A stretch of 46,259 nt of DNA from Nitrospirales bacterium (GTDB lineage: Bacteria; Nitrospirota; Nitrospiria; Nitrospirales; UBA8639): contig JAJDZI010000066.1 of NCBI GenBank assembly GCA_022824735.1, forward strand, positions 1-46,259. Reading direction: 5' to 3'. Under the pieces are notes generated by a model. That model did not search any database. It had not been told where the DNA came from and was given only the letters and a program-made list of their open reading frames with translations. Positions 2 to 45,857 of the stretch are shown here, piece by piece. The position numbers and the translations under genes are program-made. Each line of letters begins with the position of its first letter. The first letter of the stretch is position 1.

Positions 2-1249
2 CGCGGCGCCCGGGTCACGCTGTACGAGATGCGACCCAAACAGGGAACCGCGGCGCACAAGACGGATCAGTTGGCGGAAATCGTGTGCTCGAATTCATTG
101 GGCTCCGCAGATCCTCTCAGCGCGCCGGGCATTTTGAAGGAAGAGATGCGGCTGCTGAATTCGCTGGTCATCCGGGCGGCGGAAGCGGCCCGCGTGCCAG
201 CCGGGGCGGCGCTGGCCGTGGACCGCGAGATCTTCGCGCGCGAAATCACCCGGACGCTGGAATCCCACCCGAATATCCGGATCATCCGGGAAGAGATCCG
301 GGAGATCCCCACGGGCGCCCTGTGCATCGTGGCCACGGGGCCCTTGACGTCCGAGAGCCTGGCGCAGGCCTTGACCGCGCTCACCCACAAAACGAACCTG
401 GCGTTTTTCGACGCAATTTCCCCGATCATCGATGCCGAGTCCATTGACATGGACAAGGTGTTTCGGGCGTCACGCTATGAAAAAGGCAGCGCGGATTATC
501 TGAATTGTCCGATGGATGAAGAAACCTACTCGGCCTTTTACGAGGCGCTGATGGCCGCGGACAAGGTGCAACCGAAGGATTTTGAACAGGTTCCCTACTT
601 TGAAGGCTGTCTCCCCATTGAAGCCATGGCGGAACGCGGAAAACAGACGTTGACCTTCGGTCCGATGAAGCCGGTCGGACTGATCGATCCGCGCACCGGC
701 GTCCGGCCGCACGCGGTACTCCAGTTACGTGCGGAAAATCGTCATGGTTCGTGTTATAACATGGTGGGGTTTCAAACCAAGCTGACTTACCCGGAGCAAA
801 AGCGCGTGTTCCGGATGATTCCGGGCCTTGAACGGGCGGCGTTTCTCCGCTATGGAAGCGTACATCGGAACACCTTTGTGAACTCCCCTGCCGTGTTGCG
901 CAACACGTTGCAACTGAAGGCGTCCGACCCCACGTGGCTGGCGGGCTGTATCGTCGGGGTGGAAGGCTACGTCGAATGCGCCGCCACCGGCGGCCTGGCG
1001 GGCATCAACGCCGGGCGGGCGTTGGCTGGTCTGTCGTTGGTGACGCCTCCCTTGGCCACGGCACATGGGGCCTTGCTGCATTATATTACGACCAGCGACG
1101 CCAGGCATTTCCAGCCCATGAATACGAACTTCGGCTTGTTTCCGCCCCTTCCCGTGAACGTGCGGGACAAAGAACACAAGCGTCGCATGATCCACGAACG
1201 GGCCCTTGAAGAGTGGCAAACATGGAAACGGCAATCCGCGCTTTCCTGA
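2..1249 (+). CDS. trmFO: Methylenetetrahydrofolate-tRNA-(uracil-5-)-methyltransferase TrmFO, 5'-truncated by the window edge
   Basis: TrmFO is a folate- and FAD-dependent enzyme that methylates U54 of the tRNA T-loop. The reading frame is open from base 2, upstream of the first ATG at 29. The residues before that ATG (RGARVTLYE) fit the family's N-terminal beta strand, so the true start with its glycine-rich FAD motif lies outside the window and ATG 29 is not the start. The family signature MRP...HKTDQLAEIVCSNSLGS follows at once. The C-terminal half has the GVEGYVECAATGGLAGINAGRA segment typical of GidA/TrmFO flavoproteins. The 3' end overlaps xerC, so the two are probably co-transcribed. 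Family assignment is firm. Confidence 0.95.
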   Translation, partial: RGARVTLYEMRPKQGTAAHKTDQLAEIVCSNSLGSADPLSAPGILKEEMRLLNSLVIRAAEAARVPAGAALAVDREIFAREITRTLESHPNIRIIREEIREIPTGALCIVATGPLTSESLAQALTALTHKTNLAFFDAISPIIDAESIDMDKVFRASRYEKGSADYLNCPMDEETYSAFYEALMAADKVQPKDFEQVPYFEGCLPIEAMAERGKQTLTFGPMKPVGLIDPRTGVRPHAVLQLRAENRHGSCYNMVGFQTKLTYPEQKRVFRMIPGLERAAFLRYGSVHRNTFVNSPAVLRNTLQLKASDPTWLAGCIVGVEGYVECAATGGLAGINAGRALAGLSLVTPPLATAHGALLHYITTSDARHFQPMNTNFGLFPPLPVNVRDKEHKRRMIHERALEEWQTWKRQSALS

Positions 1250-2196
1250 CGTACCTCGACGTGGAACGAGGCGCGTCCCGCGAAACGATTCGTGGTTATA
1301 CGTCTGACCTGCGACAATTTGTGGCCTTTCTGAAGACCGTCACGGACGTGCCGCCGGAGCCGGCCATGATCGATGCGTCGCTGGTTCGCCGGTTTCTGGT
1401 GTGGTTGGCCGAGCGACGGGATAAAAAGTCATCGCAGGCGCGGAAGCTTGCGACGCTGCGCAGCCTCTTCAAATTTTTGCGCCGCCGCGGGAACGTGTCG
1501 AGCAATCCCGTGGCCAACGTTCGTTCTCCACGGCTGGGGCAACGCTTGCCCCGCGTCCTCACGAAAGACGAGGCGGGCCGGGTGATCGAATCTTCCGGTT
1601 GCGGTGAAGGAACCTGCGCAGCCAGGGATCAAGCGATTCTGGAAACACTCTATTCGACGGGCGCGCGGGTGAGTGAGTTGGTAGGGGTGAATTGGAGCGA
1701 CCTGAGTCTTGATGAAGGGATGGTACGGTTGAAAGGCAAAGGTAAAAAAGAGCGGCTCGTACCGATCGGGTGCGTGGCCATCGAGGCCATCCGGGATTAT
1801 CTTGCCGTGACCCCGGTTCGGGCGAATCCGGCCACGGACAAGGACGCGGCCTCGCCCCTCAACGTGAAACCGGCGGATGGTCCGGTATTTCGCAACAATC
1901 GAGGCGGCCGGTTATCGGTCCGAAGCGTGGAGCGGATCGTCCGGCGTTACGGCGACCGCTTGCAGGTGGGGACCGTGACCCCGCATACTTTCCGGCATTC
2001 CTATGCCACGCATTTATTGGACGAGGGGGCCGACCTCCGGGTCATTCAGGAAATGCTCGGACATGCGTCGTTGGCCACCACCCAGAAATATACACACTTG
2101 GCCACAGACCGGTTGATGGAAGTGTACGATCAGGCCCATCCGCGTTCCGGAAACGTGAAGGCCGGAAAGCCCGCGACCCCGAGGAAATCTCCATGA
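1222..2196 (+). CDS. xerC: Tyrosine recombinase XerC
   Basis: This is a site-specific tyrosine recombinase that resolves chromosome dimers with XerD at dif. An N-terminal SAM-like core-binding domain (about residues 3-85) precedes the catalytic domain. Catalytic residues are visible: Arg in STGARVSEL, Lys in the [12 protein letters not shown] hairpin, HxxR in [12 protein letters not shown], His in [12 protein letters not shown], and the nucleophilic Tyr in QKYTH. A GTG at 1213 would add three residues (MAN); I prefer ATG 1222. Both overlap the end of trmFO. The stop overlaps the start of hslV as ATGA. The xerC-hslV-hslU linkage is common in bacteria. XerC rather than XerD is inferred from this neighbourhood. 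Confidence 0.93.
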
Positions 2197-2735
2197 AGAT
2201 CCGGTCCACCACGATTCTGTCCGTTCGTCGAAACGGCACGGTGGCCATGGGTTGTGACGGCCAGGTGACGGTTGGGACTACGGTGATGAAGGCCAACGCG
2301 CGCAAAGTTCGCCGGCTCCATCACGATCAGGTCATCGCGGGTTTTGCCGGAGCCACGGCGGACGCCTTTACCTTATTTGAAAAGTTCGAGGAGAAATTGG
2401 AAGAATATCGAGGCAACCTGACCAGGGCCGCGGTCGAACTGGCCAAAGACTGGCGGACGGATCGCGTGTTGCGACGCCTCGAAGCATTGTTAGCCGTCGC
2501 GGACCTGGATCGGTCCTTTCTCATTTCCGGCACGGGGGACGTCGTGGAACCGGAAGACGGAATTCTCGCCATCGGGTCGGGCGGACCGTATGCGCTGGCC
2601 GCGGCTCGCGCGCTGATGGACCATTCTTCCTTGACGCCGCCGGAGATCGTCGACAACGCCATGCGTATTGCCGGCGGCATCGATATCTACACGAATCACG
2701 AAATCGTGATCGAAGAACTGAAGGCATCCTCATGA
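2193..2735 (+). CDS. hslV: ATP-dependent protease peptidase subunit HslV (ClpQ)
   Basis: HslV is the proteolytic subunit of the two-component HslUV (ClpYQ) cytosolic protease, a proteasome-like N-terminal-threonine hydrolase. The predicted 180-aa product starts [15 protein letters not shown]. The family's catalytic Thr corresponds to Thr6, so a five-residue propeptide (MKIRS) would have to be removed. The GDGQVT-like segment is present as GCDGQVTVG, and the C terminus has [11 protein letters not shown]. An open frame extends upstream to 1770, but that part is a shadow of xerC; ATG 2193, overlapping the xerC stop, gives the family's length. It is coupled by a 4-bp overlap to hslU. Confidence 0.95.
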
Positions 2736-4108
2736 ATCCCGACGCCCCGGCGGTGAAACTCGATAGCTTGTCTCCTCGCGAAATCGTCGAAGTGCTCGAC
2801 AGGTACGTGATCGGACAACGCGACGCCAAACGGATGGTGGCCATCGCCTTGCGCAATCGATGGCGCCGCCAGCAACTCAGCCCGGAACTGCGTGAAGAAA
2901 TTTTCCCGAAGAACATCGTCATGATCGGGCCGACGGGCGTGGGCAAGACGGAAATTTCCCGGCGATTGGCGAAATTGGCCGACGCCCCGTTCATCAAAGT
3001 CGAAGCATCGAAGTTTACCGAAGTGGGGTACGTGGGGCGTGACGTGGAATCGATCATCCGCGACCTGACCGAACAGTCGGTCAACCTGGTAAAAAATTCG
3101 TCGCTTGAGCGAGTCGAACGGAAGGCCGAAGACATCGCCGAAGATCACGTGCTCGATTTGTTGCTTCCTCCGAGTACGTCTCGACCTGCGGAGGGGCAGG
3201 AGCATGAGCCGGGGCAACCGGCGCCGGGTGACGCCACCCGACAAAAGCTACGCAAGCAACTACGGGAAGGCGGGCTGGATAACCGGACCGTGGAAATCGA
3301 AATCAAGGAGCGCGGGCTGCCCGTCGGGATTATCTCCAACGTCGGAGGCATGGAAGAACTGGAGAATCATTTGCGCGACATGCTTGGCGGGTTGATGCCC
3401 GGCAAGAAGAAAAACCGGGTCATGAAAATCCCCGACGCCCTGAAGTATTTTGCGCAGGAGGAAGCGCAGAAACTGATTGACATGGACGAGGTGACGCGCG
3501 ACGCCATCGAACGGGTCGAGCAATCCGGCATCGTCTTTTTGGATGAAATCGATAAAATTGCGGGCCGGGAAAAACACATGGGGCCCGACGTGTCACGGGA
3601 AGGCGTGCAACGGGATTTGCTGCCGATTGTCGAAGGAGCGACCGTCAATACAAAATACGGGCCGGTGAAGACCGACCATATTCTGTTTATTGCCGCCGGG
3701 GCGTTTCACGTGGCCAAGCCGACCGACCTGATTCCCGAGTTGCAGGGCCGGTTCCCCATTCGGGTCGAGTTGGAACCCTTGACCAAAGGCGACCTGGTGC
3801 GCATTTTGACGGAACCCAGAAACGCCCTGGTGAAACAATATCAGGCCTTGATGAAAACCGAAGACATCACGCTGGACTTTACACGGGAAGGCATTGACGC
3901 CATTGCGGCCATCGCCGTGGAGGTCAACGATCGAACGGAAAACATCGGCGCGCGCCGGTTGTTCACGATCGTGGAGCGGTTGCTGGAGGAAGTCTCCTTC
4001 GAAGCACAGGAACTGGAAGAGAAAAAAGTGGTGATCGACGCGCCCTACGTGCATGAGCATTTGAAAGAGATCGTCAAGGACCAGGATCTGAGCCGGTACA
4101 TCTTGTAG
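2732..4108 (+). CDS. hslU: ATP-dependent protease ATPase subunit HslU (ClpY)
   Basis: HslU is the AAA+ unfoldase ring that feeds substrates into HslV. The 458-aa length is normal. The N-terminal [22 protein letters not shown] segment is the HslU signature. Walker A is [13 protein letters not shown] and Walker B is [10 protein letters not shown]. The family-specific I-domain lies between them (about residues 110-240), and the C terminus ends DLSRYIL, as expected for docking into HslV. The start ATG overlaps the hslV stop (ATGA), implying translational coupling. Confidence 0.97.
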
Positions 4109-4128: not shown

Positions 4129-5022
4129 ATGAACAGACTGATCAAGAAAGCGGACGTCCTCGTCGAAGCGTTGCCCTACATCCGGACGTTCGCGGGAAAG
4201 ACCATCGTCATCAAATACGGCGGGAAAGCCATGGTCGAGGATGGACTGAAGGATGGCTTTGCCGAAGACGTAGTGCTGATGAAATACGTCGGCCTCAATC
4301 CCGTGATCGTGCACGGCGGCGGGCCGCAGATCGATCAAATGCTGTCCCGGTTGGGCATGAAGCCGACCTTCAGGCGAGGCGTCCGGGTCACGGATCAAGC
4401 GACCATGGACGTGGTCGAAATGGTCCTGGGCGGAAAGATCAACAAGGAAATCGTCACGATGCTCAATCAACACGGGGGGAAGGCCGTCGGCATCACCGGC
4501 AAGGACGCGCAGTGCATCGTGTGCAAACCGTTTTCCGCAAAGGCCTGGGTGCAGGGGTTGAGCCACGAGCCCCACGGTCAGGCGGAGGAAGAGTACGGCT
4601 TCGTGGGAGAGGTCGATCGGATCGAACCGCAGCTCATCACGAAACTACAGCAGGAGAATCTGATTCCGGTCATCGCTCCCATCGGCGTCGATCGCAAAGG
4701 CAAACCGCATAACATCAACGCGGACCTCGTGGCCGGTGCCGTGGCTGGCGCGTTGAAAGCGGAGAAGCTGCTGATGCTCACCGACGTGCGAGGCATTCGC
4801 GGTGCCAATAACCGGCACCTGCCCACGGTCTCCAGAAAAGACGTCGAACGCATGGTGAAGAAGGGTACAATCAGTGAAGGCATGCTGCCCAAGGTGCGGG
4901 CCTGTTTAGCTGGGATCGAAGCCGGGGTGCAAAAGGCCCACATTATTGACGGCCGGATCGAGCACGCCGTCTTACTGGAGATTTTCACGGACAAGGGAAT
5001 CGGCACGGAAATCGTGGCGTAG
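4129..5022 (+). CDS. argB: Acetylglutamate kinase
   Basis: ArgB phosphorylates N-acetyl-L-glutamate in the second step of arginine biosynthesis. Amino-acid-kinase fold motifs are visible: IVIKYGGKAM near residue 25, VIVHGGGPQID near 60, KAVGITGKDA near 120, and a C-terminal EHAVLLEIFTDKGIGTEI. The length of 297 aa is usual for bacterial ArgB. It starts 20 bp after hslU and may share its transcript. The N-terminal extension with KADVLVEALPYIRTF resembles the helix of arginine-sensitive hexameric ArgBs, so feedback inhibition by arginine is plausible but inferred. Confidence 0.96.
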   Translation: MNRLIKKADVLVEALPYIRTFAGKTIVIKYGGKAMVEDGLKDGFAEDVVLMKYVGLNPVIVHGGGPQIDQMLSRLGMKPTFRRGVRVTDQATMDVVEMVLGGKINKEIVTMLNQHGGKAVGITGKDAQCIVCKPFSAKAWVQGLSHEPHGQAEEEYGFVGEVDRIEPQLITKLQQENLIPVIAPIGVDRKGKPHNINADLVAGAVAGALKAEKLLMLTDVRGIRGANNRHLPTVSRKDVERMVKKGTISEGMLPKVRACLAGIEAGVQKAHIIDGRIEHAVLLEIFTDKGIGTEIVA

Positions 5023-5027
5023 ACCTA

Positions 5028-5063
5028 CCCCCTCTCCCTGACGAGGGAGAGGGCTGGGGTGAG
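5028..5063. repeat. GC-rich hairpin repeat after argB
   Basis: A perfect 10-bp stem, CCCTCTCCCT (5030-5039) with AGGGAGAGGG (5044-5053), has a 4-base loop and is followed by CTGGGGTGAG. The same theme recurs near 14.7 kb and 23.6 kb. There is no T-run, so calling it an intrinsic terminator would be speculative. I treat it as a dispersed intergenic repeat. Confidence 0.6.
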
Positions 5064-5091: not shown

Positions 5092-5721
5092 ATGAAACTC
5101 ACGAAAGCACAATCCGGGGGGAAGAATCGTGCCGCGCCGCCGCCGCCGGACCGGAAGACCGTGCTGTTGCTGGTTCACCTCCAGAATGACTTTTGTCCGG
5201 GCGGCGCCTCGCCGGTGCCTGAAGGGGATCACGTCGTCCCCGTGGCCAATGACTGGATTCGGTTTTTTGCCGGGCAGGGGTACGGGATTGTCGCCACGCG
5301 GGATTGGCATCCGGCGAACCACTGTTCATTTCGAGAGCAGGGTGGACCGTGGCCGCCGCATTGCGTGCAAGGGTCATTGGGGTCCCAGTTCCATCCGGAT
5401 TTGAAAATGCCGCCCGGGACGCTGATCGTGTCCGTGGCCACCAATCCGAAACAAGAAGCCTATTCCGGGTTTGACGGGACCACGCTGGACGAGCGTCTCG
5501 AAGATCTGGGGGCGCAGACCTTGTACGTGATCGGGCTGGCCACGGACTATTGCGTGAAGCAGACGGTCCTGGATGCCTGCAAGCTGGGATTTCGTGTCGT
5601 GGTCCTGAGAGACGGTGTGCGCGGGATCAACGTGCAACCCGGAGATTCCGGGCGAGCCCTGGAGGCCATGCAGGAAGCCGGCGCTATTGTGGCTGTTTCA
5701 GCAGACCTTAGCATCCACTGA
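5092..5721 (+). CDS. Nicotinamidase/isochorismatase-fold protein with substituted catalytic residues
   Basis: This 209-aa product belongs to the cysteine-hydrolase (isochorismatase) superfamily and is closest in layout to nicotinamidase PncA. The metal-site residues seem kept: Asp71 and His73 (DWH), His77 and His90. The nucleophilic cysteine is Cys154 in ATDYCVKQT. The first triad residue, Asp in VDxQNDF of known PncAs, is His29 here (LLLVHLQNDFCPGG). The lysine of the KGxNP motif is Val115 (VSVATNPKQEAYSGF). The protein may therefore be inactive, use other residues, or have another role. A GTG at 5059 could add 11 residues, but that stretch falls in the repeat region, so ATG 5092 is preferred. 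It lies alone between argB and the convergent xth. Confidence 0.8.
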   Translation: MKLTKAQSGGKNRAAPPPPDRKTVLLLVHLQNDFCPGGASPVPEGDHVVPVANDWIRFFAGQGYGIVATRDWHPANHCSFREQGGPWPPHCVQGSLGSQFHPDLKMPPGTLIVSVATNPKQEAYSGFDGTTLDERLEDLGAQTLYVIGLATDYCVKQTVLDACKLGFRVVVLRDGVRGINVQPGDSGRALEAMQEAGAIVAVSADLSIH

Positions 5722-9426: not shown

Positions 9427-11817
9427 TTACAGGTTCGTCTTGATGGTGTGACCGGGGGTGAGGACGTGAGAGTGGCCGTTGATGGAAACCTGGATCGGGG
9501 CGGCGTGACCCGGACGCGAGGCGAGTTGAAACGTGCCTGGAGCTACGGATACGTCCAGGGAATGCCCGCGATACTTCAGCCGGAGGTGAAGGGCTTCCAC
9601 TGCCGAAGGAAGACAGGGATTGAAACAGAGCGTGCCGTCCCTGCTTTCCCATCCCGTATAGGCGCGCTGCATCAGGTCCACTGTCCCGGCCATGGCTCCC
9701 GTGTGGATGCCTTCCGCGGTGGTGCCGGCTTGCAGGTCAGACACGTCCACGCCCAACGCGTCCTTGAACAGTTCCCATGAAGCTTCAGGGTCGGACCTCG
9801 TCATGGCCCAGGCATGCACCACCCGGCTGAGCGAAGATCCGTGCGCCGTTCGCGCCGAGTAATATTCGACGTTCCGGGAAATGGTGGTGGTTGCAAAGGG
9901 ATAGCCCAGCCGGTCGAACAGGGATTGCAGTTCATCCTTGGAGAACACATAAAAGAGCATCAGGACGTCGGCCTGTTTGGAGAGCTTGTAACGGTTCGTG
10001 GAATCCCCTTCGGCTTCCAGGATCCGGTCCAGCCGGTGGATGTCCCCGTATCGTTGCCGGTAGCCTTCCCAATCAAATTCCGCCAAAGCCTCATATCCTT
10101 CGAATTGACTGATGATTCCTTCGTCGTGAAACGGCACGAACATCTTCCGGCTGATGTCTTCCCACAAGGCGACCTCGGTGGGGCTGACGTGCAGGAGGTC
10201 TCGCACTTCGGTACGGGTTGACGCCGCGAGCCGGTCCAGGAGTTCCAAGGCCCGGCATAGAATCCAGACGACCATGACGTTGGTATAGGCATTGTTATCC
10301 AATCCGGGGTTTTCGGAAGCCGGATACTGATCGTGGTATTCATCGGGTCCCATCACCCGCAGAATCTCATAGCGTTCCTTGCCGGGATTGTATGAGGTGG
10401 CGCTGACCCAGAACCGGGCGATCTCCAGGAACATTTCCGCGCCCCGGGTGGAAAGAAACTCCCAGTCGCCGGTGGCTTCGACGTACTGCCAGACGTTATA
10501 AGCGATGGCCGCGTTCACGTGGCGTTGAAGCGTGCTCAGGTCCGGGATCCATCGACCGGATTTGGGGTTCAGGTGCAGGACCTGGCTTTCTTCCCGGCCG
10601 TTGCTGCCGCTTTGCCAGGGATACATGGCCCCGCTGAATCCGGCTTGGGCTGCATTGCGTCTGGCCTGTTCGAGGCGTCGATGCCGGTACAACAGCAGCG
10701 CCTTCGTCAACGCCGGGACTCGCAAGTTCAACACCGGGAAAATGTACAGTTCGTCCCAGAAAATGTGTCCCCGATACGCCTCGCCGTGCCACCCCCGCGC
10801 GGGAACGCCCGCGTCCAACTCGACCGTATGCGACGAAACCGTTTGCAGCAGGTGAAAGAGGTGTAACCGGAGCGTGAGTTGTGAGCCTTCGCCGCCTTGC
10901 AGGCCCAGGTCGCACTGCTGCCACACCTGGTCCCAGTGCCGGGTATGCGAGCGCAGCAAGTCCTCGAACCGGCCGGTATGCGCGAGGGCATCACGGGCCT
11001 CTTCCCCGCATTCCGAAATGCCGTGATCGCGCGAGGTATACAACGACGCGATTTTTTCAATGGTCAAAGGCTGGCCTTTCGTCATGGGAATCGTACATTC
11101 CTGGCCGATGTAGTCCCGGTCCTGCACCGGGGTCCTGGGCAATTCAGCCCAAGCCGCATCCGGAAAGAAGCCGGTGCGCGCGGCTTGGGCGATGCGGACT
11201 TTCGATTGAGTGGTCTCCGTACACAGGAAGATGCCGTCGCGGCTGAACGCGGAGGTTTCCAAGGGAGATAAGTGGAGATTGTTCAGTGCCGCGTAGCGCG
11301 GCACGCCGGTGTTGCGAACCCGGCCGTCGAGACCGGTATGAACCTCCAACGGGCCGGACCAGTTGTCAGGGGTGATGACGACCTCCAACCCGGCCAGGTG
11401 CGGAGCGCCCAGGTGGACGAGCCGGCGGCTGTTCACCGTGGTCTTTCGCCCCTGGCTATCCTCAAATTGATACGAACGATGCAGGACCCCGGTTTTCAGG
11501 TCCAGGGTCTGCCGGTACGAGAGCAGGTCAACGGCCTGGATGTTGAACCACTCGCCGTCGGGGTGGCGAAAGGTGAGGACCAACCAATTCGGCAGGTTCA
11601 CGAGGTCTTCATTCTCGATCGTCCGGCCTTCGATCTCGGTCTGCAACCGGTTGTATCCGCCGGCCAGGTAGGTTCCCGGGTAGTGCGTGGCATCGGCGTG
11701 GGCTTCGGGAGCCGCCCCGCGGGTGGCAAAATACCCGTTGCCCAGCGTACAGAGGGCTTCGCGCAGGCGCTCCTTCGCGGGGTCGAACCCGTCGTAGATC
11801 AAGGCCCAGTCGCTCAT
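9427..11817 (-). CDS. Glycoside hydrolase family 65 disaccharide phosphorylase (trehalose/kojibiose/maltose phosphorylase type)
   Basis: GH65 enzymes use phosphate to cleave an alpha-glucosidic bond, releasing beta-glucose 1-phosphate. The 796-aa protein has an N-terminal beta-sandwich (about residues 1-270) and an (alpha/alpha)6 barrel with GEAYRGHIFWDELYIFPVL, a PWQSGSNGREESQ loop and RVMGPDEYHDQ, whose Glu is the family's general acid. The substrate cannot be read from sequence. The stop codon of the next gene upstream on this strand, a beta-phosphoglucomutase/trehalose-phosphatase fusion, overlaps this start by 4 bp. That is the expected partner, since beta-phosphoglucomutase turns beta-G1P into G6P. 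The pair probably serves trehalose or a related alpha-glucoside. Confidence 0.9.
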   Translation of the reverse strand: MSDWALIYDGFDPAKERLREALCTLGNGYFATRGAAPEAHADATHYPGTYLAGGYNRLQTEIEGRTIENEDLVNLPNWLVLTFRHPDGEWFNIQAVDLLSYRQTLDLKTGVLHRSYQFEDSQGRKTTVNSRRLVHLGAPHLAGLEVVITPDNWSGPLEVHTGLDGRVRNTGVPRYAALNNLHLSPLETSAFSRDGIFLCTETTQSKVRIAQAARTGFFPDAAWAELPRTPVQDRDYIGQECTIPMTKGQPLTIEKIASLYTSRDHGISECGEEARDALAHTGRFEDLLRSHTRHWDQVWQQCDLGLQGGEGSQLTLRLHLFHLLQTVSSHTVELDAGVPARGWHGEAYRGHIFWDELYIFPVLNLRVPALTKALLLYRHRRLEQARRNAAQAGFSGAMYPWQSGSNGREESQVLHLNPKSGRWIPDLSTLQRHVNAAIAYNVWQYVEATGDWEFLSTRGAEMFLEIARFWVSATSYNPGKERYEILRVMGPDEYHDQYPASENPGLDNNAYTNVMVVWILCRALELLDRLAASTRTEVRDLLHVSPTEVALWEDISRKMFVPFHDEGIISQFEGYEALAEFDWEGYRQRYGDIHRLDRILEAEGDSTNRYKLSKQADVLMLFYVFSKDELQSLFDRLGYPFATTTISRNVEYYSARTAHGSSLSRVVHAWAMTRSDPEASWELFKDALGVDVSDLQAGTTAEGIHTGAMAGTVDLMQRAYTGWESRDGTLCFNPCLPSAVEALHLRLKYRGHSLDVSVAPGTFQLASRPGHAAPIQVSINGHSHVLTPGHTIKTNL

Positions 11818-13388
11818 GGCGTTTGGCTGTCCAGGTGACGACTCAATCGCATGAGAAATTCTTTCACCTCATGGGGGTCTTGCAATGAAAAAGAAGCGGA
11901 CGAAAAGCGCGAGCCGTGTTCCACCACGATCCCCACGCCGCGCTCGACCAACTCACGAAACGCATGTTCGTCCGTGAGATCATCGCCGATATACACGGGC
12001 TGGTACCGGCGCTCTTTCCATTTCATGCCTTCGAGCAACCACAACAGGGCTTTGCCTTTGTCCCAGTCGAGCTGCGGTTGCAATTCAAAGACCATCTTGC
12101 CTGCTGAGCGCTTGAGATCGGGAGACTCGGCCATGGCCCGGGTGACGGCCTCTTCAACTTTGGAAACTTCACCGGGATCGACCAGGCGATAGTGGACCGC
12201 GATGGAAAATTTCTTCCGCTCGATCAAGGCGCCGGCAATGGGGTGAAGAAGAGGCCTGAGCATTTCTTCCGCGTGATCGAGGGCCTTGGAAAATTGCGTC
12301 CCGACTTCATGGGACAGGGCGAAGCGTTCCGGTCCGGCAATGTCGAATCCATGGCTGCCGGCGTAGATCAGCGAGTCCAGGTTCACGAGGTTCGTGACGT
12401 CCTTGCGATCCCGGCCGCTGATGATCCCCACCGGACATTGACGGCTCAACGTGTCCATCACGTCACGCACGTCCTGCGCCAACACGGCCAGTTCGGGCCG
12501 GTCCACAATCGGCGTCAGGGTGCCGTCGTAATCGAGAAACACCACCGGTTGTTGCCCTATCCGTTCCAGCACGTCGTCGAATCGATCGAGCGCGGACGGC
12601 AGGGCCGTGGCGCTACGCCACGTGATTCCGGCTTCGTCCCGGACGACGAGTGCCTCCAAATCCTGGACAACCACGTCGCCGCCGTGAGCAGACAGGGCGT
12701 CGGCCTGACCGACGCGATCAAGGCCCACGACCAGGCCGAAGGATCCGGCCCGGCCGGCTTCCACCCCGGCCAATGCGTCTTCACACACCACGGCTCGTTG
12801 AGGCAGGACTTCCAAACATTCGGCGGCTCTCAAGAAGGTGTCAGGGTGCGGTTTCCCGCGCAGGCTCAAGGCACGGGCATCCCGGCCGTCCACCATCACC
12901 TCGAACAGGTCCGTCACCCCCGCGGCTTGCACGATGCCCCGGCCGTTTTCGCTGGCCGTGACAATCGCGGTTTTTTTGCCCAGAGATTTGAGCAGCCGCA
13001 TGAGCGCAACCGTCGAAGGAAAGACCTCCACCCCGTTCTCGTCCAGGGTCTTCAGAAACTGGACGTTCTTGCGATTTCCCAGCCCGCAAACGGTTTCACG
13101 CTCGGGCGGGTCCGAGGGGTCTCCATGGGGCAGTGTGATGCCGCGGGAGTCCAGAAAACTGGTCACGCCGTCGTACCGGGGCTTGCCGTCCACGTAGGCG
13201 CAATAATCATTGACGGGGTCAAAGGCTTGAAACGGTTCCCCGGTTTGCCCGGCTTGCGCCCGGAGGTAATCATCAAACAGGTGTTTCCACGCGGCCGCGT
13301 GAACCGCCGCAGTTCTGGTGATGACCCCATCGAGGTCAAAAATCGCGGCATCGAAACCGCTCAACTCCAGTAGGGGTTGATCCGCCAT
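11814..13388 (-). CDS. Bifunctional HAD protein: beta-phosphoglucomutase domain fused to trehalose-6-phosphate phosphatase (OtsB) domain
   Basis: Two HAD-superfamily modules lie in one 524-aa chain. Residues 10-250 are beta-phosphoglucomutase-like: FDLDGVITRTAAVHAAAWK holds the nucleophile and acid/base Asp pair, followed by AIVTAS, GKPHPD and VCEDALAGVEAG. Residues 270-520 are OtsB-like: VFLDYDGTLTPIVDRPE, GIISGRD, YAGSHGFDI and YIGDDLTDEHAF. The first domain would convert beta-G1P from the adjacent GH65 phosphorylase to G6P. The second would dephosphorylate trehalose 6-phosphate. No OtsA lies nearby. The ATGA overlap with the GH65 gene indicates coupled translation. Activities are family inferences. 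Confidence 0.87.
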   Translation of the reverse strand: MADQPLLELSGFDAAIFDLDGVITRTAAVHAAAWKHLFDDYLRAQAGQTGEPFQAFDPVNDYCAYVDGKPRYDGVTSFLDSRGITLPHGDPSDPPERETVCGLGNRKNVQFLKTLDENGVEVFPSTVALMRLLKSLGKKTAIVTASENGRGIVQAAGVTDLFEVMVDGRDARALSLRGKPHPDTFLRAAECLEVLPQRAVVCEDALAGVEAGRAGSFGLVVGLDRVGQADALSAHGGDVVVQDLEALVVRDEAGITWRSATALPSALDRFDDVLERIGQQPVVFLDYDGTLTPIVDRPELAVLAQDVRDVMDTLSRQCPVGIISGRDRKDVTNLVNLDSLIYAGSHGFDIAGPERFALSHEVGTQFSKALDHAEEMLRPLLHPIAGALIERKKFSIAVHYRLVDPGEVSKVEEAVTRAMAESPDLKRSAGKMVFELQPQLDWDKGKALLWLLEGMKWKERRYQPVYIGDDLTDEHAFRELVERGVGIVVEHGSRFSSASFSLQDPHEVKEFLMRLSRHLDSQTP

Positions 13389-14706: not shown

Positions 14707-14860
14707 TACCCCCTCACCCCAACCCTCTCCCACCAGGGGAGAGGGAGTTGAGGAGAGGAAGGAAAGGTCCCCCCGCCCCACGGCGGGAGAGGGAGTTGAG
14801 GAGGGGAAGGAAAGACCCCCCTCGCCCCACGGCGGGAGAGGGCTGGGGTGGAGGGGAAAT
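14707..14860. repeat. Tandem 47-49 bp GC-rich repeat between pheA and hisC
   Basis: Two near-identical tandem units occupy 14738-14784 and 14785-14833. Each begins GGGAGAGGGAGTTGAGGA and ends in CGCCCCACGGC. A third unit, from 14834, is cut short and joins the generic GAGAGGGCTGGGGTG motif. The whole block resembles the hairpin repeats after argB and after sppA. It fills most of the 209-bp pheA-hisC gap. Confidence 0.75.
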
Positions 14861-38714: not shown

Positions 38715-39803
38715 ATGAATGGTACCTCTTTGAACGCTATTTGCCCTTACTTCACTATGTTTCCTTTGGATTTTCCTGTGAAAGTAATAGAAAGGCACGC
38801 TAAGAAAGGGTCATGGGTCCTAGACCCATTCTGTGGACGCGGGACAACAAATTTTGCAGCCCGTATTCTCGGTATCCCTTCGGTCGGTGTCGATTGTAGC
38901 CCTATAGCGGTGGCAATTGCGAAGGCAAAAACCGTACGGTCGACGGTAGATGCTGTAGTTAATGCCTTGAATGAGTGCTTAGAGTTCGACTTAACTGAGC
39001 CAATACCACGCGGCTCGTTTTGGAAGCGAGCATACCATCCAAAAACTTTAGAATCCCTGTGCCGTATTCGAGCAGCACTCATCAATGACTGCACCACATC
39101 CGCTCAAGTCACGCTTCGCGCATTATTGCTTGGTGCCCTGCATGGCCCACTGACCAAAGGTGTACCATCATATTTCTCGAATCAATGCACTCGAACGTTC
39201 GCACCAAAGCCAAAATATGCTGTAAAGTTTTGGAAGGCCCGATCGCTTCATCCGCAAAGGATTGACATTCGAGATCTAGTTCAGCGCAACGCCCGGCGAT
39301 ACTTAGAGGGGCAGCCACGTCTTGCCCCCGGACTTATACATCTTGCAGATAGTAAGGCTCTCGATCGCCTCTCATTGCCCCGTGGGATAAACTTGGTAAT
39401 TACGTCCCCACCATATTACGGTATGAGAACTTACCGCCCCGATCAATGGTTGAGAAACTGGTTCCTTGGTGGCCCCAATAAGGTAGAATATGGCCAGCCA
39501 GACGGCTCACTTTCTCATAAGTCTGATAACGATTTCGCGCGCGAACTTGGCGATGTCTGGCGAAGCGTATCCTCTGTGTGCGCTCAAAATGCAAGACTGG
39601 TTTGTAGGTTCGGTGGCATTCGTAATAGAAGCGCCGAACCACACGATCTAATTAAGCGGTCTTTCAAGGATACTGATTGGAAAATTACCACAATGAGAAA
39701 TGCTGGCAGTGCGACACGGGGGAAGCGTCAGGCCTATCAATTTGGTGGTCGATCAAGTGATAGCCCGCGAGAAGAGTACGATGTCTATGCGAAACTTATG
39801 TAG
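38715..39803 (+). CDS. DNA methyltransferase with DPFCGRG and SPPY motifs (N4-cytosine or N6-adenine type)
   Basis: A 362-aa SAM-dependent DNA methyltransferase. The N terminus (MFPLDFPVKVIERH) looks like motif X. Motif I is DPFCGRGTTNFAAR (D37-G43), followed by VGVDCSPIA. Motif IV, SPPYYGMRTY, comes only at residues 231-240, after a spacer of about 185 residues that may hold target recognition. SPPY favours N4-cytosine methylation but does not exclude N6-adenine. The order X-I-spacer-IV resembles the alpha class, whereas SPPY enzymes are most often beta class. A good GAAGGTG ribosome binding site precedes ATG 38715. It converges with the HerA gene, stop to stop 9 bp apart. Confidence 0.88.
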   Translation: MNGTSLNAICPYFTMFPLDFPVKVIERHAKKGSWVLDPFCGRGTTNFAARILGIPSVGVDCSPIAVAIAKAKTVRSTVDAVVNALNECLEFDLTEPIPRGSFWKRAYHPKTLESLCRIRAALINDCTTSAQVTLRALLLGALHGPLTKGVPSYFSNQCTRTFAPKPKYAVKFWKARSLHPQRIDIRDLVQRNARRYLEGQPRLAPGLIHLADSKALDRLSLPRGINLVITSPPYYGMRTYRPDQWLRNWFLGGPNKVEYGQPDGSLSHKSDNDFARELGDVWRSVSSVCAQNARLVCRFGGIRNRSAEPHDLIKRSFKDTDWKITTMRNAGSATRGKRQAYQFGGRSSDSPREEYDVYAKLM

Positions 39804-39812
39804 TTTCGAGCG

Positions 39813-41909
39813 TTAAGTCTTAAAGATGAACGTAGTATTTTTGGGTCCACGTTTTTCCGTTTTCCAATTTCTCTGCCCGAGAATTTGGTTTAACGCTTCC
39901 GTCACCAAATTGAAAGCAATATTGTCCCGATCATCCAACGTTGCTGGCAATTCGTCGGCTAGCATACCTTTGACTACTCCCCAAGGAATGCCTGATTGTT
40001 CAATGCCAGTCGTGAATTCCGGGTTTTCTTGAAGAGCATCAATTGCCCGTCGCTTGTGCATTGCAAATACATCTAGTCCCTCACCCTCTTCAACCTCCTC
40101 TTCACTGGCAGGTGCTGCAAAATCACTTGTTTTGTCTGTAGGACTTAACTCTTCAGATTGACTCAGTATATAGTCGCTATAGCGTTTTCGAAGCTCGTTT
40201 GCATAGACATTGATGCTAGGCAAACGGTATTCAGGGTCTCGAAGGTCGTACAACTTCTCAAAAGACAATACCCGGACAGGGATCGGATAAATTGTGTTTC
40301 CGGCACTACTCCAAAATATACCCTGGCCTGGGATTGGCTCATTTAACAGCGTACTTAGGAGGTCGTCACTGAAGTGGGCATTTGCACTTTTCACATTCCT
40401 GAGATCTGCGGCAGAAAGTAAGTGAAATATGAACCAGTTGTCACCTTGACTCAGGATATCTACGGGGATACTGCCTGGCTGTTGGGTGATTAGCAACGCA
40501 CCAAGATCATATTTTCGACCTTCCTTAACCCATTCGACATAAGGACCAGATGCGGATGAGTTCTCGTTTAGGACGGCTTGTGCTTCCTCAACAACGGCGA
40601 TAGTGGGTATAGTCTTCGGTTCGGCTTTAGTAAACTCTTTTTGATTACGGTCAAAAATCCTTCGAAGGATTAGACCAGACAAAATAAGGGATGGGCCACC
40701 CCTAAGTTGCGATACGTCGATAACACACAGTTTCCCACTAGCCAGTGACTCTAAAAGCATATCCATCAATTGGCTACTTGGGTCATGCAACATCCGAACT
40801 ATTGAGGTCATGTTTGCCCGGGCAGCCAATGCCTCAACATCTTGCCCCGACTCCAAGTGCATTAGATCCTGTATTAGTTTCAAATCTGCGGCATTGCCGT
40901 GCCGATAAATCAGGTCAACGAGGCTTGACCAATTTGTCAGGTTCATGCCTCTGAGTTTTCTAACATTCTGTTGATCTTGTTTCTCTGGGGAAAGCGCGAT
41001 TGAGATAACGTCACCGGGTTGTAACCTGCGAATGTCGAGTTTGACTCCACCGGCCACGAATGAATTATAGAACTCGCTTGGAGCTGCTCTGGAGGTGAAG
41101 ACTACGATCTGGTCTTTTAATTCATCAACATCGCAGAGACCCGGTCGGCCTTTATCATCGGGCCAAAAATACTCTCCGTCGGGATCAAATATGACTGTTC
41201 CGACAGGCACTTCTCGACCGCCTCTCTTTTGCACTTTAGGAGTGTCCGCATACAGCCTACTGAAGAGCAACTTATTTAGATTGGATTTTCCAAAACCAGC
41301 TCTAGCGAACACAAAGGTCCGCCTAGATACCAAGTTTGATATTGAAAACTTGACTGTTGCTAGTGGCTCCTTGAGTTGCATCCACGATTCAGCCTCAAGC
41401 CTGTCGTCTCCATAGGCATAAATGTATTCTCCGAGTGCAAAGAAACCTAGTTCTGCCCCTAAGCCATGGTGGCCAGCAAGATGGCCCAGGATCTTGTCCG
41501 ATGGAAACGCTATCGGACTGCCTACGTGTGGCAAGCGACGTTGTGATGGTACGAAGGTAATGTCTTCCCCATTCGAACGGACGATACCTAAAACGCGAAT
41601 CTTGACACGGTACTGCAGATACTCTTCGCGCAGATGATCAGGCACCTGTCGCCCCTCGTCAACTGCGCGAATTGAATATTGCTCTCCCGCTGAACTCGTT
41701 AATTTTCCTTCAGCCGACAAAGATGTAATACGACCCAAGACGGCCTCATCTGGGTGTTCCAATTGTACCAATACAAACTGCCCATGCATGGGCACATTAT
41801 GAAGTTTTTCCTTGTAAGGAATAGTCAGATCAGCGTGGAACTCCAATCCACCCTCACGAAAACCCCTGAAAACGCCGACTATCTCGTGTTTCGGGAACAA
41901 TTCCAGCAT
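39813..41909 (-). CDS. HerA-FtsK family ATPase (DNA translocase/helicase)
   Basis: A 698-aa hexameric-type DNA-pumping ATPase of the HerA/VirB4-like branch. Residues 1-110 form a HAS-barrel-like N-terminal domain. Walker A is ARAGFGKSN (K208) and the loop FDPDGEYFW follows. Walker B is TIAVVEEAQ (E441, E442), with the motif LLITQQPGSIP near residue 475 in the sensor position. The C-terminal part (about 600-698) has an acidic linker (SEEEVEEGEG) and a likely winged helix. It lies directly downstream of the NurA gene, the classic partner that supplies nuclease activity to HerA. AGAGGACTCCT precedes the ATG. Confidence 0.88.
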   Translation of the reverse strand: MLELFPKHEIVGVFRGFREGGLEFHADLTIPYKEKLHNVPMHGQFVLVQLEHPDEAVLGRITSLSAEGKLTSSAGEQYSIRAVDEGRQVPDHLREEYLQYRVKIRVLGIVRSNGEDITFVPSQRRLPHVGSPIAFPSDKILGHLAGHHGLGAELGFFALGEYIYAYGDDRLEAESWMQLKEPLATVKFSISNLVSRRTFVFARAGFGKSNLNKLLFSRLYADTPKVQKRGGREVPVGTVIFDPDGEYFWPDDKGRPGLCDVDELKDQIVVFTSRAAPSEFYNSFVAGGVKLDIRRLQPGDVISIALSPEKQDQQNVRKLRGMNLTNWSSLVDLIYRHGNAADLKLIQDLMHLESGQDVEALAARANMTSIVRMLHDPSSQLMDMLLESLASGKLCVIDVSQLRGGPSLILSGLILRRIFDRNQKEFTKAEPKTIPTIAVVEEAQAVLNENSSASGPYVEWVKEGRKYDLGALLITQQPGSIPVDILSQGDNWFIFHLLSAADLRNVKSANAHFSDDLLSTLLNEPIPGQGIFWSSAGNTIYPIPVRVLSFEKLYDLRDPEYRLPSINVYANELRKRYSDYILSQSEELSPTDKTSDFAAPASEEEVEEGEGLDVFAMHKRRAIDALQENPEFTTGIEQSGIPWGVVKGMLADELPATLDDRDNIAFNLVTEALNQILGQRNWKTEKRGPKNTTFIFKT

Positions 41910-41918
41910 AGGAGTCCT

Positions 41919-43040
41919 CTATTCGTACCGTCGACAGCTCGGGTCGCTCTCTTGGAATGCCATTTCGTCGATAACAAAGCGCTTATTCCCCAGTGTATTG
42001 CGAATGGCAGAAAATATTTGGTCCTGCAGTATATCCATGTCGAAATCCACAATAGCAGCTTTAGCGTGTGCTCGCTGCAAACACTCTGGATAATAGGGTA
42101 TAGGAAATCCGTCCTGACAATCAGCGAGCAGATAACCAAGGATGGTAGGAGCAGCTTCGACTTGTGATGCAAATATGTCGATTGCCCAGATTGGCGAATA
42201 GGGACTCTTGCCAAATTTTACTAAGAACATGGAACCGGCAACATAGCTCTCACCCTCTCCTCCGCCAGTTGCGAATTCAGACCACTTGTACACCTTTGCT
42301 TCTAGATCTTTCGGGACCGGAACATATGCGGGATAGGCAATCCGAAGCACTCCTTCAAGAGCCATGGCAAGTCGGTATTTCTGCAAGAACTTGCTGTGCT
42401 TTGCGATACCGACAATATAGATACGCCTGCGGCTCTCCTCGAAGTGCCGAGAAATCTCGGTACCAATCGCCTCCGCTAACTTACCGAACAAACCTTTCTT
42501 GAACATCTTCGACCGCAAAAAACCATCGCGTACAATAACTGTGTCGGTCCCAAAGTCCTTTGTGCGCAGCAGTTCGAGAAGTACGGCCCATTCACTCATC
42601 TCACGATACACCTGCACCCAACTTGGTGATCGATCTTCAATATTCTCCTTGAAAACCGGAGAAAGGTCTTGAAGTTTGCGGAGACCCAATACCTCGGCTA
42701 ATCTACCAAGAGGAGTCAGGCCAACGCCACCACTGTCAAAATGCCGTGTATTTAAGTCAGAAAAATCGGATGCTGGTGTAACAACTTCTAAGCAGTGTTG
42801 GTTATCACTTGAATCAACGACTCTTACGATCTGGACCATGAAGGGGTCAAACTTTACTGAATTTTCCCCACCATCAGTTCCCACCAAGCTGATGGCCGTG
42901 GCCGAACGGGCCTGTATTCGCCGCGTGTTAGATTTAAGGGTTCTCAGATCAGAGAGCATTGCGTCTAATAGCGACTGGTCGCGTTCAATGTTTTCTCGTA
43001 CTTTGCTAGCAAGCTCTTCTATGATTTTCGGCTCAATCAT
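41919..43040 (-). CDS. NurA-domain nuclease
   Basis: A 373-aa protein matching the NurA nuclease pattern, an RNase H-like fold with two-metal catalysis. Asp56 lies in VGTDGGE, there is a glutamate-rich helix (E147, E150), Asp172 in VIVRDGFLRS, Lys214 in IVGIAKHSK, and a C-terminal His region in ECLQRAHAKAAIVDFD. In archaea NurA works with HerA to resect DNA ends; bacterial HerA-NurA pairs also occur in defence contexts. The frame extends to a TTG at 43061 that overlaps the ParA-like gene. ATG 43040, preceded by GTGGAG, is preferred. This is the likely DNA-degrading effector of the island. Confidence 0.82.
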   Translation of the reverse strand: MIEPKIIEELASKVRENIERDQSLLDAMLSDLRTLKSNTRRIQARSATAISLVGTDGGENSVKFDPFMVQIVRVVDSSDNQHCLEVVTPASDFSDLNTRHFDSGGVGLTPLGRLAEVLGLRKLQDLSPVFKENIEDRSPSWVQVYREMSEWAVLLELLRTKDFGTDTVIVRDGFLRSKMFKKGLFGKLAEAIGTEISRHFEESRRRIYIVGIAKHSKFLQKYRLAMALEGVLRIAYPAYVPVPKDLEAKVYKWSEFATGGGEGESYVAGSMFLVKFGKSPYSPIWAIDIFASQVEAAPTILGYLLADCQDGFPIPYYPECLQRAHAKAAIVDFDMDILQDQIFSAIRNTLGNKRFVIDEMAFQESDPSCRRYE

Positions 43041-43053
43041 GAGTATCTCCACT

Positions 43054-44898
43054 TCACTCAAATTTTGAGCTAACAGGGAAGTATGCAGGCGTCACATTGG
43101 CTCCTGAAAGAAGTTTACTAATCGACTCCAGATCATCCACAAACTCATTGGGCTCAACCACGAGATAGCGCCAGCAGCTAAATTCCGGAAGCTGTTGTGA
43201 CATGATTTGTTCTTTGGCAACCGCCAACTCTTTTTGGGCGTATTCTGTATCACCGACAACCCAATGAGTGATGCTCAAGCATTGTGAATAATTTGCCCTC
43301 CTTGGTCTTTTAAGGTCTTCTTCATCCTGCTGAAGTACGAGCTCGAAGAGTTCACGAGGAGGAGTACCCTCTACAGCCCATCTTGCCATGCCGAGATTGA
43401 AGGCAACTGGCTGTTGAAGGTCGCTCACTCCTTTTTGAGTGGTTTGCACGAGTTCAATGGCAGAACTTGAACGGCCCTGACCGATCAGGTTTAGCATCAA
43501 TGCCGATATGAGTTCTGGACTCGGGCCATTACTCCTCTTGACCCTTGTCGACATAAGTTGTTCGGCAAATTTTAAGGTGGCAACATCCCATGAGAGCGAA
43601 GCGCCACATAATTTCGCGATTTCATAGTCACTAAGAGCTTCAACCGCTGTCCATGTTCCAGCCATATCAAGCAACTCGGGCTTTAGATCGCGTAGCCAGC
43701 GGATGGCCCTACTGACCTCAGGGAAATCCGCATCCTCCCTAGACAGTGCAAATTTTATTGATTCGACCGCCCGTTCAGTGTCACCAAGTCGCTGGGCAAT
43801 ATCCGCACGGCGTAGATGGATATCCGCACTATCTTTGCCGGCTTCTATTGCATGGCCAAGAAGCACGTCTGTCTCTTCAAGCCGACCTTGTCTTCGTCGA
43901 AATTCGGCAAGACGAACAAGGATTTCACCGTCGTCCTTATGAGTCTCATAAAGTTTCCGAAGACTATCCTCAACATCGTGCCTATCTCGTTCCTGACGAC
44001 GGGGAAGCAGTTGTTGTCTTGGTTGTCGCAAATGATCGAGAAAATCTAAAGCGCCTTCTCGATCCTCAGGATTCAAACGCCGGATTTTTTTTAAAAGTGA
44101 GCGATATTCGCCTGCCAGCCTACTCCGCGGCCGTTTCAACGTGAATACTGTTTGATTGAGCAGAGCAAGATTGTTGTAATGGTGAATAGTTGCCGCTAGA
44201 TCATCATATTCAAGCTGGTCCTTGAATCTACTAAGACGGTTCTTAAGGATCTGATCTTCGTCATCGAGATCAGGCACGTTAGAATTTACAAACAAGAGAC
44301 GAATATTTTTCTCCCTTGGAGGTTTGTCTTCGTTCCGAATTCGGCTCACAACCTTTTGTAAACCGTGGAGATTTTGGTCAGTAGGAAAGAATATGCAGAC
44401 AACAGAATCTGGCAGTTGGCGTGTACAGATTCCCCCCGCATCAGTGTATCCGGTTCTCGAATCAATAAGCACATAATCTGGGTCGATAAATGCTTCCCAT
44501 TGCAGTTTCAGGTCTTCGAACAGAAAATACCCATCTTCCTTTGCGTAAAGCGAACGCCAGTCTATTGAGCTTAAGCGGGCTGGGTAGTGCTCATCTTGCA
44601 ACCCTGCTGGCATAACCCATAACTCGCCAGAAGAACTTAGTTGAACAGCCGACTTGTAGAGATAATCGGCGACATCTGGTGCCTTTCTATTGGTAAGGTA
44701 CGACTGAACATAATCAACAAGTCCTGGCGTTTCAGTCTTGGGGCGCGGCAAGTTAAATGTCTCAATCCCTGGGGCTTCGAGATCAAAGTCGACTACTAGA
44801 ACACGATTGCCCGACATAGCCATCTCCATAGCTATGTTCATAAGTGCCATGGACCGACCAGCACCGCCCTTGAAGGAGTAAAAGGTGACTACGTACAT
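43054..44898 (-). CDS. ParA/MinD-like ATPase (KGGAGR type) with C-terminal TPR-like helical repeats
   Basis: A 614-aa protein starting MYVVTFYSFKGGAGRSMALMNIA. It has a deviant Walker A of the ParA/MinD (SIMIBI) class with signature Lys10 but Arg15 where Lys is usual. VLVVDFDLEAPGIE follows, then YVLIDSRTGYTDAGG as the switch/Walker B region. After about residue 300 the chain is helical, with TPR-like units (ILVRLAEFRRRQGRLEETDVLLGHAI, IHLRRADIAQRLGDTERAVESIKFAL) and further repeats to about 590. Similar KGG-x-GR ATPases joined to repeat domains occur in predicted biological-conflict systems. A sensor or switch upstream of HerA-NurA is plausible. An extra 13 residues to 44937 are possible. 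Confidence 0.82.
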   Translation of the reverse strand: MYVVTFYSFKGGAGRSMALMNIAMEMAMSGNRVLVVDFDLEAPGIETFNLPRPKTETPGLVDYVQSYLTNRKAPDVADYLYKSAVQLSSSGELWVMPAGLQDEHYPARLSSIDWRSLYAKEDGYFLFEDLKLQWEAFIDPDYVLIDSRTGYTDAGGICTRQLPDSVVCIFFPTDQNLHGLQKVVSRIRNEDKPPREKNIRLLFVNSNVPDLDDEDQILKNRLSRFKDQLEYDDLAATIHHYNNLALLNQTVFTLKRPRSRLAGEYRSLLKKIRRLNPEDREGALDFLDHLRQPRQQLLPRRQERDRHDVEDSLRKLYETHKDDGEILVRLAEFRRRQGRLEETDVLLGHAIEAGKDSADIHLRRADIAQRLGDTERAVESIKFALSREDADFPEVSRAIRWLRDLKPELLDMAGTWTAVEALSDYEIAKLCGASLSWDVATLKFAEQLMSTRVKRSNGPSPELISALMLNLIGQGRSSSAIELVQTTQKGVSDLQQPVAFNLGMARWAVEGTPPRELFELVLQQDEEDLKRPRRANYSQCLSITHWVVGDTEYAQKELAVAKEQIMSQQLPEFSCWRYLVVEPNEFVDDLESISKLLSGANVTPAYFPVSSKFE

Positions 44899-44938
44899 AT
44901 TGCTACATACATTTTTTGAGAGAAACCTCTTGAACAAC

Positions 44939-45493: not shown

Positions 45494-45509
45494 TTCGGCT
45501 CTCCCTGTT

Positions 45510-45857
45510 TTAATCAAACTCGCTGTAGTGAAAGCTACGTCCGATAACTTCCATACTTCCGAACTCCAATTTGACGTAAAGCATTCGCTGGTTTGTGCCA
45601 AGATCTATCTTCATTACATAGCCCTTCTTGTCCGGGGGGCTGTTCAATGGGACCTCTTCGAGCGGGTGTCCTTCCTCTAACTTTTCTTCGATGAATTGCC
45701 ATGCGCCGTTGAAGGTGAATGGCATCCCGCTAGACGGGTGCGGTATCTGTGTCGGCCGCCAATCACTTGGCTTTTCTCTTGACCAAGGATTTACCCGTTT
45801 GCGCTGCTTAATTAGCGCCACCAATTGTTTTCGGATTTCCGATAGATCGTCATCCAC
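45510..45857 (-). CDS. Small protein, possible toxin partner of the zinc-finger/HTH protein
   Basis: A 115-aa protein encoded first in the leftward operon, 16 bp before the zinc-finger/HTH gene. The N terminus is basic and helical (EIRKQLVALIKQRKRVNPWSREKP). The C terminus ends in a beta-rich stretch, LYVKLEFGSMEVIGRSFHYS, loosely like the last strands of RelE/MqsR-type RNases. Size, order and partner fit a type II toxin-antitoxin pair, but no catalytic signature is certain. It could equally be a small component of the defence module. Confidence 0.65.
   Translation of the reverse strand: MDDDLSEIRKQLVALIKQRKRVNPWSREKPSDWRPTQIPHPSSGMPFTFNGAWQFIEEKLEEGHPLEEVPLNSPPDKKGYVMKIDLGTNQRMLYVKLEFGSMEVIGRSFHYSEFD

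Follow-up and report, generated by a model that had tools for sequence, protein, structure and literature searches.

The gene at positions 5092–5721 of the window (the whole stretch of 46,259 nucleotides that was analysed) encodes a PncA-like protein, here named PncL, in which two of the three catalytic residues of nicotinamidases, enzymes of vitamin B3 recycling, are replaced, as they are in a group of Nitrospira-related bacteria. On the basis of sequence comparisons and a structure model, we consider with medium confidence that PncL is a predicted pseudoenzyme, which is kept by selection and would bind a metal and a pyridine, and that it is not a nicotinamidase. The window is contig C93 of a 2.3-Mb genome in 151 contigs, which is 98% complete. 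The genera of its GTDB family are designated g1 to g10, the window genome belonging to g1, and aligned orthologues are called rows. The features of concern are:

29–1249, forward strand: trmFO/gidA-like gene, first conserved gene of the operon (PF01134, synteny)
1213–2196, forward strand: xerC-like gene (open reading frame, synteny; named from the sequence)
2199–2735, forward strand: hslV-like gene, inside an open reading frame of 1770–2735 (open reading frame, synteny; named from the sequence)
2732–4108, forward strand: hslU-like gene (open reading frame, synteny; named from the sequence)
4129–5022, forward strand: argB-like gene, directly upstream of pncL (open reading frame, synteny; named from the sequence)
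5030–5053, forward strand: perfect inverted repeat of 10 nucleotides with a loop of 4 nucleotides, between argB and pncL, no T run following (sequence search)
5092–5721, forward strand: pncL (name coined here), PncA-like protein of 209 amino acids with His29, Val115 and Cys154 (open reading frame, PF00857, PRK11609, fold match to 1ilw)
5176–5178, forward strand: codon CAC of His29, in the place of the catalytic Asp (1ilw alignment; His in 20/20 His-type rows, Asp in 20/20 other family rows)
5302–5361, forward strand: metal-site segment with D71 (5302–5304), H73 (5308–5310), H77 (5320–5322) and H90 (5359–5361) (alignment)
5434–5436, forward strand: codon GTG of Val115, in the place of the catalytic Lys (Gly, Val, Cys or Ser in 20/20 His-type rows, Lys in 20/20 others)
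5551–5553, forward strand: codon of Cys154, nucleophile position, retained (likewise Cys in 13 of 14 g1+g7 rows; all five readable g4+g10 rows have Trp)

The reading frame of pncL starts with ATG at 5092, and its stop codon ends at 5721; the list of open reading frames also holds an in-frame GTG at 5059. A wrong start codon is not favoured; alignments of relatives begin at the same Met. Profile searches gave 118.9 bits against the Pfam Isochorismatase family (PF00857) and 189.4 bits against NCBIfam NF008623 (PRK11609, nicotinamidase/pyrazinamidase equivalog), the latter above the curated cut-off of 174. The best solved chain by sequence (phmmer) was PncA of Pyrococcus horikoshii, 1ilw (E 5.4e-59). 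An AlphaFold2 model, built from 56 sequences with a mean pLDDT of 92.9, matched 1ilw with Z 30.3 and an rmsd of 1.0 over 179 aligned residues; thus, the isochorismatase-like hydrolase fold is present. The closest named relatives among the best 80 of 116 loci showed 86–92% identity and belong to metagenome-assembled genomes which bear the name Nitrospira sp. or Nitrospirales bacterium.

In the phmmer alignment to 1ilw, with correspondences counted by hand, His29 stands opposite residue 10 (Asp), Val115 opposite residue 94 (Lys) and Cys154 opposite residue 133 (Cys), as an earlier note, made from the window alone, had read them. Residues 10, 94 and 133 are those which we take to be the catalytic triad, in agreement with passages of published papers. 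Triad positions given in parts of PMC3581539 and PMC5531466 are consistent with this assignment. Judged as a PncA nicotinamidase, the protein therefore lacks the catalytic Asp and the catalytic Lys and possesses the nucleophile Cys, and no other Asp and Lys appear to take their places in the sequence alignment to 1ilw, a possibility which the earlier note had raised. Passages of PMC5531466 describe the metal of P. horikoshii-type enzymes as held by one Asp and two His; D71, H73 and H90 align with the Asp and His of the 1ilw metal motif, so that these ligands are present by alignment. H77, which had also been proposed as a ligand, is present too, but it is not required of full-triad enzymes, since several relatives with the full triad carry Thr and one carries Ala at this position.

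Among 48 genomes of the family which were searched, 43 contained a match, and 40 operon orthologues were aligned (14 from g1+g7, 6 from g4+g10 and 20 from g3, g5, g6, g8 and g9). The partial copy of G059 and the remnant of G008 were left out of the residue counts; G022 was readable only in part, not at the Cys position. His29 was found in all 14 g1+g7 rows and all 6 g4+g10 rows, Asp in all 20 remaining rows. None of the 20 His rows has Lys (Gly in 16, Val in 2, Cys and Ser in one each), and all 20 Asp rows have it. The His codon was CAT in 12 and CAC in 8 of the His-type genomes. Since both residues are gone in all 20 of them and the His codon varies silently, a sequencing error or a chance double change is very unlikely, which bears out the original judgement on sequencing error. 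Whether close homologues share both replacements had been asked as well: His is common to the whole group, and Val115 is private to the window genome among the 11 rows of g1, the other ten carrying Gly (nine) or Cys (one). The common trait is thus the loss of Lys, not the presence of Val.

The nucleophile Cys is retained in 13 of 14 g1+g7 rows (Phe in G019) and in 18 of the 20 rows with Asp (Ser and Ala in the other two), and all five readable g4+g10 rows carry Trp in its place; altogether, 8 of the 39 family rows readable at this position are without it. The full Asp-Lys-Cys triad is found in 18 of 40 rows. The steadiest of the examined sites was the metal site, with D71 in 39/40 and H73, H77 and H90 each in 40/40 rows; in His-type rows it is intact in 19 of 20. 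Residues of the presumed pocket, placed there in part by alignment, are likewise conserved in g1+g7: A150, T151 and D152 in 14/14, Y153 in 13/14, Y124 and W87 in 12/14 rows. Around the site, most g1+g7 rows have the same residues as the outgroup enzymes. G019 lacks D71, W87, Y124 and the nucleophile Cys. The two Asp-type operon copies with Ser or Ala for Cys are L116 (G050) and L127 (G056); a second PncA in G050 has the Cys.

Of 70 more distant loci (L042–L111, taken from the best 80 of 116 that had been confirmed), 69 showed Asp, one being unaligned at position 29. Three of them (L062, L070, L106) encode PncA-like proteins in which Asp and Cys are kept and the place of Lys is taken by Ala or Gly. 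When 395 genomes of the phylum were scanned at the DNA level for the motif H-x-Q-N-D-F-x-x-x-G, 16 gave a match. Fifteen belong to the family of the window genome and represent every His-type genome in the 395-genome draw, G022, G024, G041, G043 and G044 not having been drawn. In the sixteenth (G169, L191) no isochorismatase-like protein was seen by eye among ATG-started open reading frames of at least 100 amino acids, and the match appears spurious.

Among the loci listed, pncL follows argB in the same orientation at the end of the operon in 37 distinct genomes, in addition to the window. In loci of sufficient length the genes are arranged as trmFO-xerC-hslV-hslU-argB-pncL, both in His and in Asp genera (the names xerC, hslV, hslU and argB being assigned from the sequences). 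Since this order is common to both, the two forms look like vertical orthologues whose active site was altered in place. Horizontal transfer from outside the family is not favoured; the operon place is identical throughout. Downstream of pncL, xth was found in g1 loci only, among the loci listed. A site related to the inverted repeat at 5030–5053, with 3 mismatches, occurs at 14819–14842 (0 such sites in 100 shuffles), and the repeat may be a dispersed intergenic one.

Elsewhere in the window, a possible mobile or defence island extends over 38715–45601. It consists of a DNA methylase (PF01555; 38715–39803, forward strand) and, on the reverse strand, a HerA-like ATPase (39813–41909), a protein without Pfam or PADLOC match (41919–43061), a ParA-type ATPase which matches TPR weakly and PDC-M28B of PADLOC at 1.7e-35 (43054–44937), and a protein whose weak HTH match falls short of the Pfam cut-off (44939–45601). 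At 9427–13388, both on the reverse strand, a GH65-family protein adjoins a 524-amino-acid fusion of a HAD hydrolase and a trehalose-phosphatase domain.

A species tree was constructed from five upstream operon proteins of 42 genomes (G051, G054 and G060, with two genes only, were dropped). It separated g1, g7, g2, g3 and g6 from g4, g10, g5, g8 and g9 with support of 100/100; within the first half, g3 and g6 joined g1+g7 with only 87/77. All groups tested by p-AU were named post hoc, after inspection of the data. A single clade of all His genera was rejected (cost of 174 log-likelihood units, p-AU 1.5e-65), as was a g1+g7+g4 clade (p-AU 0.0009); a g4+g10 clade was not rejected (p-AU 0.35). The Asp/His state required three changes, with the G008 remnant scored as His. 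By this tree, the change arose more than once or was exchanged.

The PncL tree, from which the triad and D71 columns were removed, disagrees weakly with the species tree. It grouped the His rows with 83/72 and the family Asp rows with 91/92, neither being starred, and the outgroup did not fall on one side of a branch. Here g1+g7 together with G018 and G015 was rejected (p-AU 0.006), and g4+g10+g5+g8+g9 gave a p-AU of 0.051. At positions 111, 112, 115, 116, 118 and 122, in the loop of the missing Lys, the two His groups have a residue in common which differs from that of the Asp group. Not all of these differences are changes in the His groups, since at 112 and 116 most of the outgroup has the residue of the His rows; at 122 it has that of the Asp rows. 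Without residues 108–125 and 58 and two long outgroup rows (L049, L102), the rejection disappeared (p-AU 0.29) and the His grouping fell to 67/39; L047 had been dropped from all PncL trees and from the structure alignment. The disagreement between the two trees is thus in large part located in the Lys loop. The His form may have arisen by parallel change, by local exchange of the gene or through the sorting of two ancient copies.

Selection was estimated as the median pairwise dN/dS, using a Nei-Gojobori count scripted for this work. For ten core genomes of g1 (45 pairs each) the values were 0.094 for PncL, 0.109 for trmFO, 0.170 for xerC, 0.075 for hslV, 0.070 for hslU and 0.049 for argB; 28 pairs each gave 0.112 for xth and 0.124 for polA. 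For five g4 genomes they were 0.076 (PncL), 0.103 (xerC) and 0.032 (argB), at synonymous sites near saturation (median pS 0.63–0.71), 0 to 4 of 10 pairs per gene having been dropped as saturated (none for PncL). The Asp form in eight g9 genomes gave 0.151, with 0.125 for xerC and 0.043 for argB. The His form is under ordinary purifying selection, by dN/dS no looser than the Asp form. Since the catalytic residues are lost and selection still protects the gene, PncL probably has a different job.

The gene is nevertheless dispensable. A full-length frame is present in 11 of 14 g1 genomes, the exceptions being G002, G008 and G004. In G002 argB lies next to xth without space for pncL. In G008 the frame is broken after the VHLQ motif by a tandem repeat of 66 bp which reaches the contig end (L173, 7127–7479, 5.3 copies), and a C-terminal remnant lies on another contig (L139), preceded by a similar repeat. 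These two genomes are sisters on the species tree (100/100). G014 has no pncL after argB. In G004, as in G055 and G061, neither argB nor pncL was found, and in G047 the contig ends at argB; these four are uninformative on absence.

A second, intact pncA in the window genome, which the earlier note had suggested looking for, was not detected: PncL is the single PF00857 match in this 98% complete genome. No pncB (nicotinate phosphoribosyltransferase) was found there either, by the family model or with the sequence of a 446-amino-acid relative; nadA, for de novo synthesis, was detected. Within the family, both searches yielded pncB in the same 19 of 48 genomes, among them 8/20 with His rows and 9/20 with Asp rows, and the His form therefore does not track pncB. 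NadA was found in 45/48 genomes and in 33/33 of the better ones. Some other His-type genomes (e.g., G012, G016, G024, G042) contain further PF00857 proteins. In six g9 genomes (G049, G050, G053, G059, G062, G063) a second, short PncA of about 176–189 amino acids, with triad and metal site, adjoins a NAPRTase/pncB match, and this protein, not the operon gene, is likely the salvage enzyme there. In G062 (L131, 2854–4881) a Macro domain is fused to the nicotinate phosphoribosyltransferase next to the short full-triad PncA, possibly as an ADP-ribose/NAD salvage pair.

The original suggestion had been a pseudoenzyme, a metal or nicotinamide sensor, or a hydrolase of new chemistry. It is supported in part, the pseudoenzyme being the best supported of the three, since the whole group is without two triad residues, some sub-lineages have lost Cys as well, the metal site and purifying selection are kept, and the window genome yielded no second protein of the family. 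Loss of catalytic residues across orthologues together with retention of the gene by selection is one mark of a pseudoenzyme, and PncL shows it. PncL would then be a retained, vertically inherited nicotinamidase relative with its machinery for amide hydrolysis switched off. A divalent metal may still be bound and may seat a pyridine-type ligand without turnover, and the nucleophile Cys would be free to drift, because it is no longer needed. In the enzymes described in passages of PMC5531466, the pyridyl nitrogen of the substrate takes the place of the axial water on the metal; Asp is assigned there to water activation and Lys to stabilising or protonating steps, which is debated. An Oceanobacillus K104A variant retained 1.45% activity according to a passage of PMC3581539, whose authors suspected misfolding. 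A nicotinamide-like ligand is favoured, since most g1+g7 rows keep the pocket residues of the outgroup enzymes. The ligand- or metal-bound protein could serve as a binder, as a sensor or as the partner of another protein; the analysis pointed to neither a partner of PncL nor a gene regulated by it. Several observations speak against a pseudoenzyme, namely the score above the nicotinamidase equivalog cut-off, a Cys154 which would be needless in a dead enzyme, a His29 which is fixed and does not drift, the dispensability of the gene (G002, G008, G014) and the loss of several site residues in G019.

Those concerning His29 and Cys154 lead to a reading which we regard as doubtful, in which His29 is a working residue and PncL hydrolyses another substrate without Lys; in g1 and g7, His29 could form a pair with Cys154, an arrangement common among cysteine hydrolases, or offer a nitrogen ligand close to the metal. 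In 20/20 rows it is always His that stands for Asp, with silent CAC/CAT changes, and on the species tree the same swap was repeated or exchanged (three changes; p-AU 1.5e-65 for one clade). However, g4 combines His29 with Trp at the Cys position in 5/5 rows, so that a His-Cys pair cannot be the common mechanism, and the grouping of His rows in the PncL tree without triad columns (83/72, not starred) makes a repeated origin uncertain. Somewhat more speculative is the thought that an operon-borne nicotinamidase was rebuilt at least two times in one family, each time by exchange of Asp for His and of Lys for a small residue, the new His having a specific job at the old active site; this might be a new chemistry of the metal or of Cys in g1 and g7, or that of a pyridine or NAD-status sensor, and the Lys loop (111–122, L-I-x-S-(G)-A-T-N-P-x-x-E), common to both His groups, would be part of the new function. 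We hold it to be improbable that PncL is still a nicotinamidase, either a slow one or one in which His29, metal-bound water or another residue has taken the roles of Asp and Lys. The curated score, the 3 of 70 distant loci (from the best 80 of 116) with Asp and Cys but no Lys, and the mechanistic flexibility argued for these enzymes in passages of PMC5531466 would be in accord with it; Asp and Lys, however, were lost together, g4 lacks the nucleophile as well, and the window genome has nadA and no detected pncB, although 8/20 His-type genomes do have pncB. Just as improbable is a decaying gene, eroding without function after loss of NAD salvage. Absence or breakage in the sisters G002 and G008 and absence after argB in G014, the patchy pncB (19/48 genomes) and the state of G019 would suit such decay, but the dN/dS of PncL in g1 is lower than those of trmFO, xerC, polA and xth (higher than those of hslV, hslU and argB), the frame is full-length in 11 of 14 g1 genomes, and the metal site is intact in 19/20 His-type rows.

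Isochorismatases of the PhzD/EntB type hydrolyse isochorismate-type vinyl ethers and function without a Cys nucleophile, the Asp being kept as acid. Their fold is shared with the PncL model (Z 22.6–22.9); their active-site Asp is absent in PncL, which by the 1ilw alignment has His29 at the Asp position of the superfamily. In open-licence PubMed Central, searched mostly at the level of titles and beginnings of abstracts, no paper on a nicotinamidase-type pseudoenzyme of the PncL kind was found; PMC4207490 contains both "isochorismatase" and "pseudoenzyme". With PncA itself (P. horikoshii 1ilw/1im5; NF008623) PncL shares the fold, 51–52% identity, the DWHPxxH metal motif and Cys154 within G-L-A-T-D-Y-C, and it differs by His29 for the catalytic Asp and Val115 for the catalytic Lys. 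The short PncA of g9 (e.g., L131) likewise matches PF00857 and has the metal-site residues, but it possesses the triad, is shorter and lies at another locus. Further counterparts are the Asp-Lys orthologues of g3, g5, g6, g8 and g9, with the same place after argB, length and metal site; they differ by having Asp and Lys (20/20) and mostly Cys (18/20), and many have an altered pocket (position 124: Arg 10, Lys 4, Tyr 3 of 20; position 87: Trp 14, His 4 of 20). PncL is thus a conserved, selected and probably non-hydrolytic variant of a known fold, to which a curated annotation model would give the wrong name. Since this model accepts a protein that lacks two catalytic residues out of three, a salvage step may be wrongly ascribed to these organisms in annotations and metabolic models. 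The group-wide swap to His, and the natural series Asp-Lys-Cys, His-Gly-Cys and His-Gly-Trp in one operon place, are unusual; with the series one can study why selection maintains an enzyme fold after catalysis has been lost.
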